Shown here: positions 862-45,855 of the stretch, piece after piece
How positions within the stretch are numbered: position 1 is the stretch's first letter
Layout: every line of letters begins with the position of its first letter
NCBI GenBank assembly: GCA_028278455.1
Contig: JANQEH010000091.1
Location: 1 to 64,000, forward strand
Length of the DNA stretch: 64,000 bases
Source: a bacterium
GTDB taxonomy: Bacteria; SM23-31
Direction: 5' to 3'
Notes under the pieces: model-generated
What the model was told of the DNA's origin: nothing
Database searches by the model: none
Seen by the model: the letters and a program-made list of their open reading frames with translations, nothing else
Program-made: the position numbers and the translations under genes

Positions 862-2574
862 ATGCAGAAAAAATGGGTTTTTGACAATAATATTCCCGAT
901 TCTGATGTCAGCGATCTTGCTGAGGAGCTCGAGGTACCTGTTGTCATTGCCAAGATCCTCCATAACAGGGGCATTGAGACGCGTGAAGATGCTGTCAGGT
1001 TCTTCAGACCTAAGATGGACAGACTTTATGATCCGTTCCTTATGCGGGATATGAAGAAGGCGGTTGACAGGATTCAGGAAGCACTGACCAACCAGGAAGC
1101 GATTCTTATCTACGGAGATTATGATGTAGACGGTATTACTTCATGTTCGCTGCTGTATCTGTATATCAGAAAACTTACCCAGAAGGTACATTATTTTATC
1201 CCGGACAGGATCAAGGACGGTTACGGATTTTCTTCCAGAGGTGTAAAGGAAGCGCGTGAAGTCGGGGCGACTCTGATTATTACTGTAGACTGCGGGATCA
1301 CAGCTGTTGAAGAGATTGGTCTGGCAAATGAGGATGGAATAGATGTTATAGTTACAGACCATCACCAGATGGGAAAAGAACTACCACCCGCTTATGCTAT
1401 CCTGAATCCCATGGTTCCGGAATGCGGATATCCTTTTAAGGGATTATCCGGTGTTGGAGTTGCTTTTAAACTTGTCCACGCCCTCAACAATTCGATCGGT
1501 TGGGATAATTCACAGCTGCTTCCCTATACTGATCTGGTTGCGATTGGCAGCGCCGCTGATATAGTTCCTCTGGTGGATGAAAACAGGATCCTTGTAAAGG
1601 AAGGTATAGAAAGGATAAACGGCCGGCACAATTTAGGTTTGAATGCTCTGTTGGATGTAGCTTCTCTGAATAACTGCTTTATCGGAACGGGACAGATACT
1701 ATTTGGTATAGCTCCCAGGATTAATGCAGTCGGCAGACTTGGCAGTGCAGAGAGGGCTGTCAGGCTTTTTACGACTTCGAAGATGGAAGAAGCGATCAAG
1801 ATCGCCGGGGTTCTTGAATCCGAGAACAGGCAGAGAAAGAACATTGAAGAAACGGCATTTATTGAAGCCGTTGAGAAAGCCGAAGCAGAGTATAACAGGT
1901 TGTCACCGGAACCTCTGGTTCTTCATGGTGAAGGATGGCATCCGGGAGTGATAGGAATCGTGGCCTCAAAGATCGTCGACCAATTTTACAGGCCTGCAGT
2001 CCTGATTGCAATTGAGGATGGGATCGGTAAGGGTTCGATAAGAAGCATTCCGGATTTCGATGTGTTCGAGGCACTGCAGAAATGCGGAAATTATCTCGAG
2101 GAATACGGTGGTCATAAATACGCCGCAGGACTAACAATAAAGGAATCAAATATCCCGGTATTCAAAGAGGCTTTCAAGAATGCGGTCAGGGAGTCTCTGA
2201 CTGCTCTGGACCTTGTGCCCAAGCTGAATATAGACGGGAAAATAGAACTTGACCTGATCAATGACAGGTTCTTCAATATTCTAAAGCATTTCGCTCCATT
2301 CGGCCCGCAGAATTCAAGGCCGGTATTTGTAGCAGAAGGGATCCAGGTTACCGGCAGGCCTACGATCGTCGGGAAAAACCACATTAAATTCTCGATAAGA
2401 CAGAACGGGGCTGTACTGCCCGTTATAGGATTCAACCTCGGGCATCTTATAGACACTATCGAAGAGGAGAGGGATTGCCTCGATATGGCATTTGTGATAG
2501 AGGAAAACACATGGCAGGGGAACACATACCTACAGCTGCAGCTGAAAGATATTAAAAGAAGAAATAATTCCTAA
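862..2574 (+). CDS. recJ: single-stranded-DNA-specific exonuclease RecJ
   Basis: RecJ degrades single-stranded DNA 5' to 3' in recombination and mismatch repair. The 570-residue protein has the DHH-superfamily order: DYDVDG at 86-91, the DCG segment at 143-145, TDHH at 165-168, then the DHHA1 region with GWHPGVIGIVASK at 358-370 and GGHKYAAG at 416-423, followed by the OB-fold tail. All metal-binding signature residues expected are present and the length is typical. It is followed after 13 bases by the tryptophanase gene on the same strand, so the two are probably co-transcribed although functionally unrelated. The upstream gap (599-861) shows no repeat and presumably holds the promoter, but no clear promoter boxes were seen. 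Confidence 0.97.
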   Translation: MQKKWVFDNNIPDSDVSDLAEELEVPVVIAKILHNRGIETREDAVRFFRPKMDRLYDPFLMRDMKKAVDRIQEALTNQEAILIYGDYDVDGITSCSLLYLYIRKLTQKVHYFIPDRIKDGYGFSSRGVKEAREVGATLIITVDCGITAVEEIGLANEDGIDVIVTDHHQMGKELPPAYAILNPMVPECGYPFKGLSGVGVAFKLVHALNNSIGWDNSQLLPYTDLVAIGSAADIVPLVDENRILVKEGIERINGRHNLGLNALLDVASLNNCFIGTGQILFGIAPRINAVGRLGSAERAVRLFTTSKMEEAIKIAGVLESENRQRKNIEETAFIEAVEKAEAEYNRLSPEPLVLHGEGWHPGVIGIVASKIVDQFYRPAVLIAIEDGIGKGSIRSIPDFDVFEALQKCGNYLEEYGGHKYAAGLTIKESNIPVFKEAFKNAVRESLTALDLVPKLNIDGKIELDLINDRFFNILKHFAPFGPQNSRPVFVAEGIQVTGRPTIVGKNHIKFSIRQNGAVLPVIGFNLGHLIDTIEEERDCLDMAFVIEENTWQGNTYLQLQLKDIKRRNNS

Positions 2575-2587
2575 CCGGGGGAGCAAA

Positions 2588-3964
2588 ATGGATTTTCCGG
2601 CAGAGCCCTTCAAGATCAAAGTTATTGAACCCATAAGCATTACAACTAAAGAAGAAAGACAGAAGATCATTGAGGATGCACATTTCAACATATTCAGTGT
2701 GCCTTCTGATAAGATCTATATTGACCTGCTGACCGACAGCGGTACTTCCGCGATGAGCGATTATCAATGGTCGGGTATAATGCTCGGAGACGAATCATAT
2801 GCCGGCAGCAAGAGTTATTTTAAATTCGAAGAGACCATACGGTCGATCTTCGGCTATAAGCACATCATCCCTACTCACCAGGGACGTGTTGCGGAGAACC
2901 TGCTTTTCTCGAGTGTTCTTAAGCCGGATTCGATCGTACCGAACAATATTCATTTCGATACAACGCGCGGTAATATCGAACATAATAATGCAAAAGCGGT
3001 CGACCTCGTCATAGACGAGGGGCTCGATCCGCATAAAGAGCATCCATTCAAGGGAAATATCGACATAAATAAACTGGAAAACCTCATTAACGAAGTCGGC
3101 GTTGCGAGGATTCCGCTCGTATTGATAACGATAACAAATAACTCCGGCGGCGGCCAGCCGGTATCGATGGAAAACATCCGGCAGGCGAGCGACGTATGCA
3201 AGAAATATGGCATCCCCTTGATATTTGACGCATGCCGGTTCGCGGAAAACTGTTTTTTCATCAAGCGGCGTGAGAAGGGATATGAAAACAAGTCTATTCT
3301 CGAGATCGCACGGGAGCTGTTTTCGTATGGGAACGGCTGCACTATGAGCGCCAAGAAGGATGCACTCGTGAATATCGGCGGATTCCTCTGCATCGAGGAT
3401 GATGAGCTGGCGCAGAGGATCACGAACCTGCTGATAATGATCGAGGGATTCCCTACTTACGGTGGCATGGCAGGCAGGGATCTCGAGGCGGTTGCCAGGG
3501 GATTGGAAGAAGTGCTAAACGAGAATTATCTGAATTTCAGAATAAGCCAGGTAAAGTACCTTGGGGAAAAACTCCAGGAAGGGGGAGTTCCGATCCTTGT
3601 ACCTGTAGGCGGACATGCAGTTTACGTTAATGCAAAGGAATTCATGCCGGATATTCCACAGTCTCAGTTTCCGGGAGTTGCCCTTACAGTAGCGCTTTAC
3701 AAGGAAGGCGGGATAAGGGCGGTTGAAATCGGGAGCTTGATGTTCGCCTCGAAGGATCCGGATACTGGAGATGTAACTTATCCGGAGCTGGAGATGGTGA
3801 GGCTTGCTATTCCACGGCGTGTATACACTGTCCGGCATATGGATTATGTTGCGGAAACTTTAATCAACATATATAAGAACCGGGACAGCATCAAGGGATT
3901 AGAGCTTGTATATGAGGCCCCGTCATTAAGACATTTTACTGCTAAGTTGAAAGAAATCGGCTGA
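2588..3964 (+). CDS. tnaA: tryptophanase (tryptophan indole-lyase)
   Basis: PLP-dependent beta-eliminating lyase that splits L-tryptophan to indole, pyruvate and ammonia. The 458 residues align end to end with the tryptophanase / tyrosine phenol-lyase family: LLTDSGTSAMSD near 47-58, PTHQGR at 95-100, and SAKKDA at 254-259 with Lys257 as the expected PLP lysine. Residues that separate the two activities favour tryptophanase: FDTT carries Asp124 where phenol-lyases have Thr, VEIGS at 379-383 has Ile where phenol-lyases have the substrate Arg, and LRHFTAKLKE has His449 where phenol-lyases have Phe. A GGGGGAG ribosome binding site precedes the ATG. It lies 13 bases after recJ and ends before a strong hairpin terminator. 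Substrate choice is inferred from these positions, not proven. Confidence 0.9.
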   Translation: MDFPAEPFKIKVIEPISITTKEERQKIIEDAHFNIFSVPSDKIYIDLLTDSGTSAMSDYQWSGIMLGDESYAGSKSYFKFEETIRSIFGYKHIIPTHQGRVAENLLFSSVLKPDSIVPNNIHFDTTRGNIEHNNAKAVDLVIDEGLDPHKEHPFKGNIDINKLENLINEVGVARIPLVLITITNNSGGGQPVSMENIRQASDVCKKYGIPLIFDACRFAENCFFIKRREKGYENKSILEIARELFSYGNGCTMSAKKDALVNIGGFLCIEDDELAQRITNLLIMIEGFPTYGGMAGRDLEAVARGLEEVLNENYLNFRISQVKYLGEKLQEGGVPILVPVGGHAVYVNAKEFMPDIPQSQFPGVALTVALYKEGGIRAVEIGSLMFASKDPDTGDVTYPELEMVRLAIPRRVYTVRHMDYVAETLINIYKNRDSIKGLELVYEAPSLRHFTAKLKEIG

Positions 3965-3981
3965 AAAATTGGATTATTTTT

Positions 3982-4026
3982 CCGGTAGCCGCAGGCTTCA
4001 GCCTGCGGCTACCGGTGGTGTTTTTT
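3982..4026 (+). terminator. intrinsic terminator after tryptophanase gene
   Basis: A perfect 15-bp inverted repeat (ccggtagccgcaggc at 3982-3996 and its complement at 4001-4015) with a 4-base loop is followed by tggtg and a run of six T at 4021-4026. It sits 17 bases after the stop codon. The stem could also be a repeat element recruited as terminator. Confidence 0.8.
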
Positions 4027-4126
4027 GATTATACAGATATTTATTCAATTTAACCTGATATCAATCTGGATATACGGTAGAATTACCCTGAAAAAAGAAT
4101 TTTGGAAATATTGAACGGATTATATA

Positions 4127-5110
4127 TTGAAAAAACCGCCGAAAGAGTATTATTCCGAGCTTGTAGTGAAGATCAACAATGATCTGCGGAAAGGAATAGC
4201 GGATAATTTCCCGCCGAACCTCTACGATCCGATGAAATATGTTCTTTCAGCCCGGGGAAAACGATTCCGCCCGATCATGGCGATATGGTCGTGCGAAGCT
4301 GTCGGCGGTGCCAGTGATGATGCATTCAGCGCAGCCCTTGCGATAGAGATACTGCATAATTTTACGCTTGTACATGATGATATCATGGATGAAGACGACC
4401 TACGCCGCGGAAGAGAGACCGTACACAAGAAGTGGAACGAGAATATAGCGATACTCGCCGGAGACGGGCTTATCGCGCTTGCTTACAGGTTTCTCCTGAG
4501 GAGCGAAACGCCTCACCTGCAGGAGCTGGTAAGCATATTTTCAGAGGCTATCATCACCGTGTGCGAAGGACAGTCGCTCGATAAGGACCTGGAGGGAAAA
4601 GAGGAAACGACACTCGAAGAATATTATGACATGATCCGGCGGAAGACGGCGGTTCTTATCTCGGTTTCCGCGGAGATCGGATGCCTCCTCGGCAGGGCAG
4701 AACAGGAGGTAAGATCAGCTGTAACCGGCTTTGCGATGGATCTCGGGCTTGCTTTCCAGATCCAGGATGACCTGCTGGATATCATCAGCGAAGAGGAGAT
4801 AATAGGGAAGGATATCGGGAGCGATCTTGCACAGGGAAAGAAAACATATCCGATTATTATGTTCAACGAAAGGGCGGATAAGAAGACAAGGGAAAAGCTC
4901 CACCGGAATTCTCTCAACAGCAAACCCACCTCAGAGAAAATGGAGCTGACAAGGAAGCTTTTCGGGGACTTCGGGGTCATCGATGATACATATAATGAAG
5001 TATCAAAACTGATAGATAGGGCGAACGGCCGGCTAGATCAGTATTCAGGCGTCATCGAAAAAGAATACCTTCTTCACCTCTCCGACATGATCAAAAACCG
5101 CAGTCATTAG
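4127..5110 (+). CDS. polyprenyl diphosphate synthase (class I)
   Basis: Isoprenyl diphosphate synthase that condenses allylic diphosphates with isopentenyl diphosphate to make a linear prenyl chain for lipids or quinones. The 327-residue protein shows the first aspartate-rich motif DDIMD at 84-88 in the context HNFTLVHDDIMDED, followed by RRG, and the second motif DDLLD at 214-218 after FQIQ; the GKKTYP loop follows at about 237-242. GKRFRP near 44-49 is the usual substrate-binding segment. An aromatic residue (Phe79) five positions before the first motif often limits chain length (C15-C20), but this alone does not decide the product. The start is a TTG; the next ATG (residue 36) would delete the N-terminal helix that the family needs. 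Upstream Shine-Dalgarno is weak. Confidence 0.9.
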   Translation: MKKPPKEYYSELVVKINNDLRKGIADNFPPNLYDPMKYVLSARGKRFRPIMAIWSCEAVGGASDDAFSAALAIEILHNFTLVHDDIMDEDDLRRGRETVHKKWNENIAILAGDGLIALAYRFLLRSETPHLQELVSIFSEAIITVCEGQSLDKDLEGKEETTLEEYYDMIRRKTAVLISVSAEIGCLLGRAEQEVRSAVTGFAMDLGLAFQIQDDLLDIISEEEIIGKDIGSDLAQGKKTYPIIMFNERADKKTREKLHRNSLNSKPTSEKMELTRKLFGDFGVIDDTYNEVSKLIDRANGRLDQYSGVIEKEYLLHLSDMIKNRSH

Positions 5111-5210
5111 TTTTTACTGTCCCAAATATAGTAGATAATACAGCCGCTTCATTATTTTACCAACGGGGCTAATAAAAGAGTTACTTTAATATTAGACTAT
5201 TGATTATAAG

Positions 5211-5248
5211 AATTCCCCCTTAGAAAAGGGGGATTAAGGGGGTTGTAC
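5211..5248 (+). repeat. CCCCCTT/AAGGGGG palindromic repeat, left-type copy
   Basis: Reads CCCCCTT, short spacer, AAGGGGGATTA, then a second AGGGGG. Same architecture and orientation as the copy directly upstream of the DUF559 gene at 45048. Confidence 0.75.
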
Positions 5249-5281
5249 AATAGTAATCTGTATTCAGTATTGTTTATACAT

Positions 5282-5413
5282 AATTCAAAATAGAGTTCTA
5301 TTTTGTCCAAAAAAGCTGGAGCAGGTTTGAAACCTGCTCCAGCACAGAATGTTATATCGATACACCCACAAACAAGTTTGCAGGTGCCAAAATAGACTCT
5401 ATGTTTTTGAATT
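5282..5413. repeat. MITE-like composite element with imperfect terminal inverted repeats
   Basis: The ends are inverted copies: ATTCAAAATAGAGTTCTATTTTG (split here: attcaaaatagag then ttctattttg) at 5283-5305 and, reversed, caaaatagactcta then tgtttttgaatt at 5388-5412, with small indels. Inside lies a perfect palindrome GCTGGAGCAGGT / ACCTGCTCCAGC at 5315-5343 and a hairpin around AACAAGTTTG at 5362-5388. The right end reaches the stop codon of the next gene. No coding capacity, so a non-autonomous element or nested repeat is likely. Confidence 0.55.
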
Positions 5414-5997
5414 CACTTCCTCAACGGGAACTGAAACCGCATGATCGGGTAATACCTGCCCGGCGGTTTGAATCCTCCTTTAAACCTGTCCAGCGGGACC
5501 TCCTCCCACTTCTCGGTTTTTATTGCTGAGCCGATTATACCGCCAACAAAGGAAGAAGGTATGCCAAAGAGAATACAGCCAGCAAGAATTGAGATCATAT
5601 GATTATTACTACCAGCTTCATATAGCATTAAAGTACCTATAAAACTACCAATTACCAAACCGTGGGCGGCACCTTTTTTGAAATTTCTTTTTCTTCCGAG
5701 ATATTTTTCGAGCCTGGTTATTGAATCTAAACTAAATCCGAGGCTTTCGTTTACAATGAGAAGGCTTATTTCCCGTTCGCTACTATATTGAAAAATCCCG
5801 TTAAATTCAAAAAAAGGAACTCTGTCAATGTACTTATTTTCAGCAAATTTATTTGTAGTATCATTTTCGTAAACAGCTGCAGGTATAGTAAGACGAATGA
5901 TATCACCCGGATTCAATTCTGTTTGTGCATAGCCGGAAGAAAACCAGAGTAGTATTAAGAATGCAGAAACACTTTTTTCGTTGATTAGACAACTCAT
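5413..5997 (-). CDS. hypothetical exported protein with glycine-rich membrane segments
   Basis: Function not recognised. Choosing the internal ATG at 5995-5997 gives a 194-residue protein that begins with a classical signal peptide (hydrophobic SVSAFLILLWFSSGYAQ), then a beta-rich domain, and a C-terminal half with two short Gly-rich hydrophobic stretches (GLVIGSFIGTLML and ILAGCILFGIPSSFVGGIIGSAI) before the ending IKTEKWEEVPLDRF, a tail I associate with families of uncharacterised envelope proteins in FCB-type bacteria. An upstream ATG at 6058-6060 would add 21 residues in front of the signal peptide and looks less likely; neither start has a strong ribosome binding site. It is a single gene on the reverse strand between repeats. 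Confidence 0.65.
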   Translation of the reverse strand: MSCLINEKSVSAFLILLWFSSGYAQTELNPGDIIRLTIPAAVYENDTTNKFAENKYIDRVPFFEFNGIFQYSSEREISLLIVNESLGFSLDSITRLEKYLGRKRNFKKGAAHGLVIGSFIGTLMLYEAGSNNHMISILAGCILFGIPSSFVGGIIGSAIKTEKWEEVPLDRFKGGFKPPGRYYPIMRFQFPLRK

Positions 5998-41383: not shown

Positions 41384-41480
41384 TCCTGAAACAAGTTCAG
41401 GACGACAAAGAATTAATAATATAGTGATTGAAAATAGACAGAATTATGTCCCCCTTTTTTAAAGGGGGATCCAGTGGGAT
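41384..41480. repeat. hairpin and CCCCCTT/AAGGGGG repeat between convergent genes
   Basis: TCCTGAA/TTCAGGA hairpin at 41384-41402, then CCCCCTTTTTTAAAGGGGGATCCAG (as ccccctttttt then aaagggggatccag) at 41449-41475. The second is a left-type copy of the repeat that flanks the DUF559 gene. Either can end transcription from both sides. Confidence 0.65.
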
Positions 41481-42773: not shown

Positions 42774-43661
42774 ATGAAAACAAAATACTTAGGTTTATTA
42801 ATTCTGATTCTTCTGCTGATCCAGGGGTGCTCTACGGTAGAGATCAGCGTAAATGACGGTTATGGGGAATACCTGATGGTGGCTGCAGGGGAGTTCCTTA
42901 TGGGCGATAATTTCGACGAGGGAAACTCAGACGAAATCCCTGTCCATACTGTCTTTCTGGATGCATACTACATCGGTCAGAACAAGATAACCAACTTTGA
43001 ATACAGCCGGTTCATAAAGGACGGCAGATATACTAATGAATTATATTGGACAGCAGGTGGGTTCGGGGAGCACGGGGACGAACCGGACTACTGGAGAGAT
43101 TTCGAACACAGGGGTGGAGGGATATCCGGTAACGAAAATTACCCGGTCGTAGGTATTAGCTGGTTCGAGGCGATGGCATACTGCAGCTGGCTGTCTGAAA
43201 AAACAGGATTCACTTACCGTCTGCCGACTGAAGCCGAATGGGAAAAAGCCGCGAGAGGGACTACACAATTCCGGTTTCCGTGGGGCAACGAGATAGATAA
43301 TTCCTATGCAGCATACGATTATGGCGCCAGCAGGAATTTCTATTCACTCGCATCGGCCGGATTTTACAACGGAATGACATACGGTTCCTTTGTAACGTCG
43401 AATAATGCATCGCCTTACGGGGCATACGATATGGCAGGGAATATCTCTGAATGGTGCCTCGACTGGTACGATTATAAATACTATAGTGTATCGCCAGAAA
43501 AAGATCCGAGGGGGCCTGATTCAGGGACAAGCAGAGTGCTGAGAAGCGGCGGATACGTAGACAGCGCATACTATCAAAGAGCGAGCTCGAGACACAAGAT
43601 GGGGGCGCATTTCAAGAGCTATAAGACGGGTTTCCGCTGCGTCCGGGAGGTGCGAAAATGA
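42774..43661 (+). CDS. SUMF1-fold lipoprotein
   Basis: A 295-residue lipoprotein: hydrophobic leader ending LLIQGCS with the lipidation Cys. The body is an FGE/sulfatase-modifying-factor fold: GEFLMGDN, PVVGISWFEAMAYCSWLSEK, YRLPTEAEWEKAARG, PYGAYDMAGNISEWCLDWY and a C-terminal GFRCVREV. The segment where formylglycine-generating enzymes place their two catalytic Cys reads SGGYVDSAYYQRASSR with no Cys, so it is not expected to oxidise sulfatases. Such variants usually act as binding or structural modules. It is followed 153 bases later by a close paralogue. Confidence 0.85.
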   Translation: MKTKYLGLLILILLLIQGCSTVEISVNDGYGEYLMVAAGEFLMGDNFDEGNSDEIPVHTVFLDAYYIGQNKITNFEYSRFIKDGRYTNELYWTAGGFGEHGDEPDYWRDFEHRGGGISGNENYPVVGISWFEAMAYCSWLSEKTGFTYRLPTEAEWEKAARGTTQFRFPWGNEIDNSYAAYDYGASRNFYSLASAGFYNGMTYGSFVTSNNASPYGAYDMAGNISEWCLDWYDYKYYSVSPEKDPRGPDSGTSRVLRSGGYVDSAYYQRASSRHKMGAHFKSYKTGFRCVREVRK

Positions 43662-43814: not shown

Positions 43815-44708
43815 ATGAAAACTTATAAAACATTATTCAGCTTCACACTTTTGATTGCCTTAATTGGTGCTTTATCCTATTCAGCATTCGCACAATTATC
43901 CGTCAATGACGGTTACGGTGAGTATATGCGGGTACCGGCCGGCCGGTTCCTGATGGGAGACAATTACGAAGAGGGTGATCCGGATGAAGTCCCTGTCCAC
44001 ATTGTTTTTCTTGACGAATATTTCATAGGTAAATACAAGGTAACGAATGCCGAGTTTAAAAAGTTCGTTGATGATAACGGCTATGAGAATTCCGAATACT
44101 GGAGCGCAGGCGGTTTTGGAGAGTATGGTGAAATACCGAGGCACTGGAACAGCGAACGGTTCAAAGGCGGCGGTATTACCGGTAATGCTAATTTCCCGGT
44201 TGTTGGTGTGAGCTGGTTTGAGGCAATGGCGTACTGCTCATGGCTATCGGAGAAGACGGGTAAAGTCTATCGGCTGCCAACTGAAGCTGAGTGGGAAAAG
44301 GCGGCACGGGGAACAGACAGCAGAAGGTTTGCCTGGGGAAACGATATAAACGGGCATTATGCTAATTTTGAGTTTAGCGATGATCCTTTCGAACGGGGCC
44401 TCACACCAGTCGGATATTACGACGGGAGCGTTCATGGTGAGTACAGGACAAACAGCAATAAGAGCCCTTACGGCGCGTTCGATATGGTCGGGAATGTCTG
44501 GGAATGGTGCCTCGATTGGTATGCATCCCGGTATTATGATGTATCACCGGAGAACGATCCAAAAGGCCCGGATACCGGATCGAGCCGTGTATTGAGAGCG
44601 GGAGGATGGGTGGACAGCGCCTATTATCAGCGGTGCGCCAACCGCAACAGCAGTTTTCCCGAGAACCGCAATCCCATCCAGGGTTTCCGCTGCGTCCGGG
44701 AGAAGTAA
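43815..44708 (+). CDS. exported SUMF1-fold protein
   Basis: A 297-residue paralogue of the preceding gene, with a cleavable signal peptide (ALIGALSYSAFA) instead of a lipobox. All fold landmarks are shared: GRFLMGDN, PVVGVSWFEAMAYCSWLSEK, YRLPTEAEWEKAARG, PYGAFDMVGNVWEWCLDWY and GFRCVREK. The catalytic segment reads GGWVDSAYYQRCANR: it has one Cys, but not the CxxxxC pair of true formylglycine-generating enzymes. Tandem duplication followed by different anchoring (lipoprotein versus soluble) suggests a shared periplasmic binding role. Confidence 0.85.
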   Translation: MKTYKTLFSFTLLIALIGALSYSAFAQLSVNDGYGEYMRVPAGRFLMGDNYEEGDPDEVPVHIVFLDEYFIGKYKVTNAEFKKFVDDNGYENSEYWSAGGFGEYGEIPRHWNSERFKGGGITGNANFPVVGVSWFEAMAYCSWLSEKTGKVYRLPTEAEWEKAARGTDSRRFAWGNDINGHYANFEFSDDPFERGLTPVGYYDGSVHGEYRTNSNKSPYGAFDMVGNVWEWCLDWYASRYYDVSPENDPKGPDTGSSRVLRAGGWVDSAYYQRCANRNSSFPENRNPIQGFRCVREK

Positions 44709-44739: not shown

Positions 44740-44776
44740 ACATCCCCCTTGATCCCCCTTCGAAGGGGGAGTTTAA
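44740..44776 (+). repeat. CCCCCTT/AAGGGGG palindromic repeat, right-type copy
   Basis: Reads CATCCCCCTTGAT then CCCCCTTCGAAGGGGGAG. Nearly identical to the copy at the end of the DUF559 gene (45445-45480), in the same orientation. A decayed copy lies at 44951-44975. The rest of the gap 44709-45083 is AT-rich with no gene. Confidence 0.8.
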
Positions 44777-45047: not shown

Positions 45048-45480
45048 TTCCCCCTTTGTAAAGGGGGATAATGGGGGATTTAAATGGTTTTACCTTATAA
45101 CCCCGAATTAAAAGCAAGAGCAAGAGAATTAAGGAAAAATAGCACTCTTTCGGAAATTCTTTTGTGGGATCAATTAAAAGGCAAAAAACTAAAAGGGTAT
45201 CAATTCAATCGCCAAAAACCCATAGGCAATTATATAGTTGATTTTTATTGTAGTAAACTGGGATTGGTGATAGAAATTGACGGGATAAGTCATAATACAA
45301 AAATTGACAAGGATATGAGAAGACAAAAGGTCTTAGAGTCATATGGTCTGAATGTTATCCGTTTTAATGATTTGGATGTCAAAAAGGAATTAGATGCTGT
45401 TTTAAGAAGCATTTTAATTGCGATAGAGAGAATTGAAAATACTTAACATCCCCCTTGATCCCCCTTCGAAGGGGGACTAT
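45048..45480 (+). mobile_element. candidate REP-like cassette: DUF559 gene inside inverted repeats
   Basis: Left repeat 45048-45083 reads CCCCCTTTGTAAAGGGGGAT, then AATGGGGGATTTAA. The complement of the right repeat 45445-45480 reads CCCCCTTCGAAGGGGGAT, then CAAGGGGGATGTTAA. They are inverted versions of one 36-base sequence and bracket a single 363-bp gene exactly: the inner GGGGG of the left copy is the Shine-Dalgarno site six bases from the ATG, and the right copy begins at the stop codon. At least ten further copies lie elsewhere in the window without the gene. This is inferred to be an autonomous element; no target-site duplication was established. Confidence 0.5.
45084..45446 (+). CDS. 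DUF559-family endonuclease-like protein (Vsr/PD-(D/E)xK fold)
   Basis: A 120-residue DUF559 protein, related to very-short-patch-repair and restriction-type nucleases. N-terminal helix motif ARELRKNSTLSEILLWDQLKG, then FNRQKPIGNYIVDFYC with Asp53, then LVIEIDGISH with Glu64, Asp66 and His70, matching the expected nuclease core, then a C-terminal FNDLDV helix. All likely catalytic residues are present, so the protein should be active. The frame is intact and flanked by inverted palindromic repeats that supply its ribosome binding site. DNA cleavage is a family-based inference; what it cleaves is unknown. Confidence 0.88.
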   Translation: MVLPYNPELKARARELRKNSTLSEILLWDQLKGKKLKGYQFNRQKPIGNYIVDFYCSKLGLVIEIDGISHNTKIDKDMRRQKVLESYGLNVIRFNDLDVKKELDAVLRSILIAIERIENT

Positions 45481-45558: not shown

Positions 45559-45855
45559 ACACCCCCTTCGAAGGGGGTGTTTATGTATAATTCCTCTTTT
45601 CTATAGAAATAGCCAATGTTAGGATCTTCACAAAGAAAGTTGAAAATTACAACTAACCTTCATACTTTAATAAAGTTCAAACAACTAAATATTGTCCTAA
45701 TAAATACTCCCACTTTTTAAAGGGGGGGCTTTAATCGTAATTTTTTTCACCTAAAGAATACTGTTGATAGGAAAAGTCAGGCAAATAAATAAACCGTCTG
45801 ACAATTTCACATTTTTTACTCCCCCTTTGTAAAGGGGGAATTAAAGGGGGATTTA
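45559..45855. repeat. field of further CCCCCTT/AAGGGGG copies
   Basis: A perfect 22-base palindrome ACACCCCCTTCG/AAGGGGGTGT at 45559-45580, a decayed copy at 45705-45730, and a full left-type copy at 45819-45855 (ending AATTAAAGGGGGATTTATAA). Spaced by roughly 140 and 110 bases. The whole gap 45447-45945 has no supported gene. Confidence 0.75.

Follow-up and report, generated by a model that had tools for sequence, protein, structure and literature searches.

A gene for a small nuclease of the DUF559 family, enclosed between two inverted palindromic repeats, was found in a bacterial DNA stretch of 64,000 nucleotides (the window). The comparison of this locus with related sequences gives good support to the view that the first repeat, the gene and the inverted second repeat together form a mobile unit, which has entered intergenic DNA as well as, in-frame, unrelated genes. 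The repeat is the BoxC/PIT/TM intrastrand-triplex motif, already described in the literature, and its association with DUF559 is well supported. As an explanation, a homing-like mobile element with triplex-repeat ends is put forward, in which cutting at the repeats by the nuclease is probably followed by copying of the unit through host repair. The original prediction, which had seen in the locus a possible REP-like self-mobilising element, is partly supported, being right in its outline and wrong in the repeat family.

The gene encodes a protein of 120 aa which belongs to Pfam DUF559 (PF04480; E-value 2.8e-35, 120.9 bits against a cut-off of 20.6) and is the only DUF559 gene in its genome. 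The features of the window are listed in Table 1, where F stands for a hairpin followed by a G-run and R for the inverse of F. The left unit consists of the computationally predicted hairpin CCCCCTT TGTA AAGGGGG followed by ATAAT and the third run GGGGG, and the right unit of CCCCC, TTGAT and then the hairpin CCCCCTTCGAAGGGGG. It had been claimed that the gene is exactly framed by inverted palindromic repeats, and this is a fair description; a repeat finder reports the two ends as a 31-nt inverted repeat with 77% complementarity; the flanks are not identical and differ from each other in loops and spacers. The third G run of the left unit lies at a Shine-Dalgarno-like distance from the ATG at 45084, in agreement with the role given to this copy beforehand. 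The right copy had been placed at the stop codon; it does follow directly after the gene, but begins three bases past the TAA (45444-45446).

Table 1. Position of the DUF559 gene and of the repeat units in the window
Feature	Position	Strand	Details
Gene-less F unit, distant from the gene	5215..5241	+	
Gene-less F-like unit, third run degenerate (GTGGG)	41450..41479	+	
Gene-less R unit upstream of the gene, near-identical to the right terminal unit	44744..44769	-	
Left terminal unit F	45050..45077	+	Hairpin 45050-45067 and third G run 45073-45077
DUF559 (PF04480) nuclease gene, 120 aa	45084..45446	+	Pfam, invariant residues, AlphaFold, fold match
Right terminal unit R (F inverted)	45450..45475	-	C run 45450-45454 and hairpin 45460-45475
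Bare palindrome CCCCCTTCGAAGGGGG, without third run	45562..45577	.	
Degenerate palindrome (CCCACTTTTTAAAGGGGGGG)	45708..45728	.	85% match to left unit
Gene-less F unit downstream of the gene	45821..45850	+	

Copies without the gene are scattered in both orientations, as had been stated. Seven palindromes were counted in the window, of which two frame the gene and three more are no further than about 400 bp away. A search of the genome (5.28 Mb, 76% complete) with the strict pattern CCCCCTTN4AAGGGGGA gave 16 sites, where the reversed control had 0; with a looser pattern of hairpin plus third G run, 77 matches, a number inflated by overlapping matches, were obtained against 2 for the control. 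The repeat count of this genome is well above chance. Just upstream of the repeat cluster there are two adjacent paralogues (42774-43661 and 43815-44708) which by eye resemble formylglycine-generating or sulfatase-modifying factors. A known defence system and a phage origin were also considered for the locus and rejected, the PADLOC and PHROG matches being only weak, and no known RNA family was found at the locus.

The BoxC/PIT/TM repeat is made of a palindromic C/G hairpin with a nearby third G-rich run, occurs in both orientations and often in inverse pairs, is present in hundreds of bacterial genomes and has been known in E. coli since the 1990s; the only form for which triplex formation in vitro has been published is that of E. 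coli (PMC4666352). The units of the window show the C run, the complementary G run and the third G run which a purine-motif triplex would need; they have stems of 7-8, and their loops fall within or close to the published range. The third run matches G5 and not the full stem, and the window repeat is therefore a short variant of the triplex motif. Holder et al. (2015) described no mobility function or gene near these repeats, left their origin and spread open, and made no mention of DUF559, ycjD or any endonuclease (PMC4666352). Compared with that work the repeat is the same, and here it forms the ends of a gene-bearing mobile unit.

The likening of the repeats to REP sequences and their RAYT transposases did not hold. 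The two systems are alike in that palindromes flank a single gene and are also dispersed without it, but the gene between the present palindromes codes for a PD-(D/E)XK nuclease and not for a Y1 HUH transposase, and here the sequences vary by genome while the three-run architecture is constant. REP families carry GTAG/CGTC tags (PMC3733652); none were seen on the window units, nor are they among the commonest triplets after the third run (TGT, ATT, TGG, TTG). A RAYT or another HUH/Y1 transposase acting in trans on gene and repeats is thus a very improbable mover. Y1_Tnp genes do occur in 35 of the 40 genomes checked, but no link with the repeats emerged from these genomes, and around the Y1_Tnp (RAYT-type) genes 0 of 10 sampled loci were bounded by repeats. 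The window's own genome has only two weak Y1 matches, the better of them with an internal stop; two repeat-rich genomes (G107 and G127) are without Y1, and three others (G158, G144 and G079) have Y1 and no pattern matches. From a classical DDE or serine/tyrosine insertion sequence the unit differs in having DUF559, and no transposase or recombinase, as its only gene and in showing no target duplication, which most DDE elements produce.

The distribution of the pairing was surveyed in 84,980 species genomes, which were searched with the protein query alone, the flanks being unused, and 80 DUF559 loci from many phyla were obtained. Most of their flanks have the same layout in different sequence, such as CCCCCTT/AAGGGGG, CCCCTCC/GGAGGGG, TCCCCTTGAGGGGA and CTCCCTT/AAGGGAG. 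A mechanical detector, demanding F upstream and R downstream, each within 130 bp of the gene, found both in 46 of 87 close DUF559 homologues against 0 of 239 other ORFs in the same loci, so that the proposed inspection of the flanks of related genes favoured the link. When 60 genomes were sampled, for the most part one from each family, both units were present at 7 and at least one at 12 of the 14 scorable DUF559 loci. The clade to which the window gene belongs shows the pairing most strongly (both units at 58 of 110), other clades more weakly. Homologues without repeats had been named as evidence against the idea, and this objection holds in part: some DUF559 lineages are without them, for example seven Flagellimonas sequences and many divergent clades. 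The Flagellimonas orthologues were also considered as a case of transposition and rejected; since they lie mostly at one conserved site and are without repeats, they look inherited.

GIY-YIG nucleases were tried as an equivalent passenger, an idea taken from an HsdR locus (L090) which holds both kinds of nuclease, and were rejected, as 0 of 25 GIY-YIG genes in repeat-rich genomes were bounded by repeats and the one at L090 lacks flanking repeats. The ORF at this locus (1489-5895) is an HsdR frame carrying the GIY-YIG domain and DUF559, both in-frame; solo repeats, likewise in-frame, stand at further places in it, and three F units of 42 nt arranged in tandem preserve the frame.

Gene and repeat were also found to vary together. 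The two ends of one element are more similar than ends of different elements (mean score 49 vs 26; 0 of 2000 permutations), and protein similarity is correlated with repeat similarity (Mantel rho 0.31; 0 of 1000 permutations), which holds also for between-phyla pairs; the repeat score, about 20 at lower protein identity, rises abruptly to 53 above 65%. The number of repeats had been expected to follow the presence of the gene, and it rises with it in Cyclobacteriaceae, in the 60 genomes and in E. coli. The median repeat excess is 15 with DUF559 and 0 without it in 119 Cyclobacteriaceae (p 8e-12), and 63 and 0 respectively in the 60-genome sample (p 9e-7; p 4e-6 when the window's own class is removed), these counts taking in overlapping matches and the two end units and carrying no phylogeny correction. 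Equal abundance of repeats in genomes without the gene, the other finding named beforehand as adverse, was not seen, the load being lower without it; the exceptions are two genomes with dozens of pattern matches and no DUF559 (G301, 90% complete, and G326, 98% complete).

Such repeat-rich genomes speak for the main rival, in which the repeats expand alone, by replication slippage or template switching at the triplex or hairpin, and DUF559 is merely carried between inverted repeats as a passenger cassette, with no part of its own in the movement. The repeats have indeed been tied to genomic instability on their own (PMC4666352). Against this, the carried gene is nearly always of the DUF559 family, no such framing is seen for other genes or small nucleases of these loci or genomes, and gene and repeat type co-vary across phyla, and we hold the passenger model to be unlikely.

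Movement of the whole unit is indicated by three groups of loci, namely a multicopy genome, the Algoriphagus sites and the in-frame insertions, and the claim that DUF559 with inverted terminal palindromes moves as one piece agrees with all of them. A Chloroflexi genome (G003) has four dispersed copies with 87-90% identity, two of them decayed; the alignment of the copies starts at AAATTCCCCC and stops at GGGGGAATT, which are the outer hairpin edges, and the flanks beyond differ. One decayed copy of this genome (L144, G003:C29) has a similar palindromic insert with CGGCCGAG at mirrored position in the left and right end hairpins, which looks as though one end had been overwritten by a copy of its partner.

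In Algoriphagus the locus can be written as A-X-B-Y-C according to gene order. In A. vanfongensis the element occupies X, and Y is empty; in A. zhangzhouensis a homologous element occupies Y, and X holds another repeat; A. litoralis has the element at X within a repeat array. Among 30 congeneric loci read, only two have DUF559 here and most are without repeats; one (G277) holds a single R-spacer-F pair at X with the gene absent. Site X seems to be a hot spot for repeats. At this site in A. zhangzhouensis (L102, about 1640-2050) a different tandem palindromic repeat of GATAAGGCTTCGCCTAGATA type takes the place of the A. vanfongensis element, and in A. litoralis (L071, 2430-4000) there are R-spacer-F arrays with a conserved spacer of about 100-150 bp, which resemble non-autonomous elements. 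That such arrays occur both with and without the gene is in favour of the passenger model.

At 17 or more of the 80 loci DUF559 lies in-frame within a longer reading frame. The hosts are HsdR (between nuclease and motor domains), N6 methyltransferases, a radical-SAM protein and a type ISP protein, in which DUF559 splits the specificity domain at profile position 181/182. A Paludibacter methyltransferase has, relative to a close homologue on a Chryseobacterium plasmid, an extra in-frame block of F units, DUF559 and R, together with two further in-frame solo units which the plasmid homologue does not have; in-frame insertion of solo units without the gene is again what the passenger model would allow. 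The block of DUF559 and repeats is 70% identical between this methyltransferase and an otherwise unrelated HsdR, and HsdR homologues without the DUF559 block are present in Flagellimonas. Rickettsia palindromic elements, which lie in-frame within coding sequence and bring no nuclease gene, are alike in their in-frame palindromes; here the insert can include a whole DUF559 domain. Empty sites and target duplications had both been suggested for inspection. The Algoriphagus loci and the Chryseobacterium homologue without the element provide the former, but no target-site duplication was seen in the G003 copies or in the Paludibacter methyltransferase comparison. As to the window's own locus, the search brought up no more than five other genomes of its class, and the relatives are too distant for an empty-site comparison.

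The protein of the window has all of the predicted catalytic residues intact (E24, D53, E64, D66, H70 and D77), which are invariant over 41 homologues including the window gene and fit a metal-dependent nuclease. The structures nearest to its AlphaFold model (pLDDT 91.6) are 3hrl, from a gonococcal DUF559 protein, and 3r3p, which represents the I-Bth0305I catalytic domain (Foldseek E 4.4e-4, TM 0.61/0.73), with Vsr lower down; a profile search likewise matched 3r3p (E 8.4e-4). It had been assumed that DUF559 has no established mobility role; such a role is not without precedent, because the family is related in sequence and fold to I-Bth0305I, an EDxHD homing endonuclease with a homologous catalytic domain. 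Homing endonucleases spread selfishly through cutting and repair (PMC3943268), and a 2022 paper assigned a DUF559 gene to the EDxHD homing family (PMC9403480). The window protein differs from I-Bth0305I in being a single stand-alone domain (about 110 aa of the 120 aa) without the extra DNA-binding regions, whereas EDxHD homing endonucleases are long multi-domain proteins which bind tens of base pairs; moreover the DUF559 unit lies outside introns and inteins and has many target sites, not one allele.

The one characterised DUF559 gene known to us is vsrA of Caulobacter. Its product, VsrA, has the same Pfam domain as the window protein. Cells lacking the solitary methyltransferase ScmA mount an SOS response which depends on VsrA, and the role of VsrA was interpreted and discussed in terms of mismatch repair (PMC12907096). 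These data suggest that DNA breaks can arise in vivo through a DUF559 protein. The mismatch-repair proposal, along with a fold close to Vsr, would suit a genome-maintenance nuclease, acting in Vsr-like mismatch repair or in triplex and hairpin removal, which makes the repeats tolerable; the repeats would then serve as start site and terminator, and the gene would spread by ordinary horizontal transfer. This is considered distinctly unlikely, as a housekeeping gene would hardly be dispersed in several copies with hairpin edges, leave decayed ones behind, or be inserted in-frame within methyltransferase, HsdR, type ISP and radical-SAM genes.

In the homing-like explanation, which we favour, the window would hold one copy of a widespread mobile element of the form F unit, DUF559 gene, R unit. 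DUF559, as an endonuclease of EDxHD/Vsr type, would cut DNA at or beside the repeats, perhaps at replication, when these may take up a hairpin or triplex form. Through recombination or break repair by the host, the gene with its ends, or the repeat alone, would then be copied into the break. The process would be an ectopic homing with many possible sites and with no transposase strand-transfer step. The gene-less repeats would be non-autonomous products or relics of the element. Among the points against this explanation are that no DUF559 protein is known to us to cleave these repeats and that PD-(D/E)XK nucleases do not join strands. From the sequence comparisons we infer that dispersal of the repeats is driven by the nuclease, and DUF559 is the best candidate for the spreader of BoxC/PIT repeats. 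A broader form of the proposal is offered tentatively, as a possibility somewhat short of even: a transposase-free class of mobile DNA in which a minimal EDxHD/Vsr-fold nuclease would recognise hairpin or intrastrand-triplex DNA, use it both for its own ends and for landing, and enter even coding genes in-frame. The BoxC/PIT repeats in E. coli, cyanobacteria, Bacteroidota and others would then have been seeded by it.

A search of the open-access literature for DUF559 together with repeats found no link, and within that literature the connection of DUF559 with BoxC/PIT appears to be new. It gives a candidate explanation for each partner, the repeats as well as the large protein family. If the nuclease drives the dispersal, the strategy of this mobile element would differ from that of transposases and of REP/RAYT, and would account both for the in-frame insertions into restriction-modification enzymes and for one source of genome instability.

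Both the repeats and ycjD are present in E. coli K-12, in which the question can be tested. In MG1655 ycjD (b1289) is a DUF559 gene, and the gap between ycjD and fabI holds the motif GGGGAGAGGGTTAGGGTGAGGGG. Sixty E. coli genomes were sampled evenly down a search ranking; those with ycjD (n=37) have 11-27 matching places (median 19) and those without it (n=23) have 1-16 (median 4; p 4e-10). The contrast seems to follow lineages and may represent one event, and it is therefore taken as suggestive only; a maintenance nuclease which makes the repeats tolerable would predict fewer repeats without ycjD too. The ycjD locus was also considered as a clean empty-site case and rejected: in the strains lacking ycjD another block of genes lies next to fabI, so that they do not present a simple empty site. 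In two loci (L310 and L230) a long perfect hairpin (CACCTCATTCTGACAAGA...TCTTGTCAGAATGAGGTG in L230) lies upstream of ycjD and overlaps its start, and is unlike the triplex repeats downstream of the gene.
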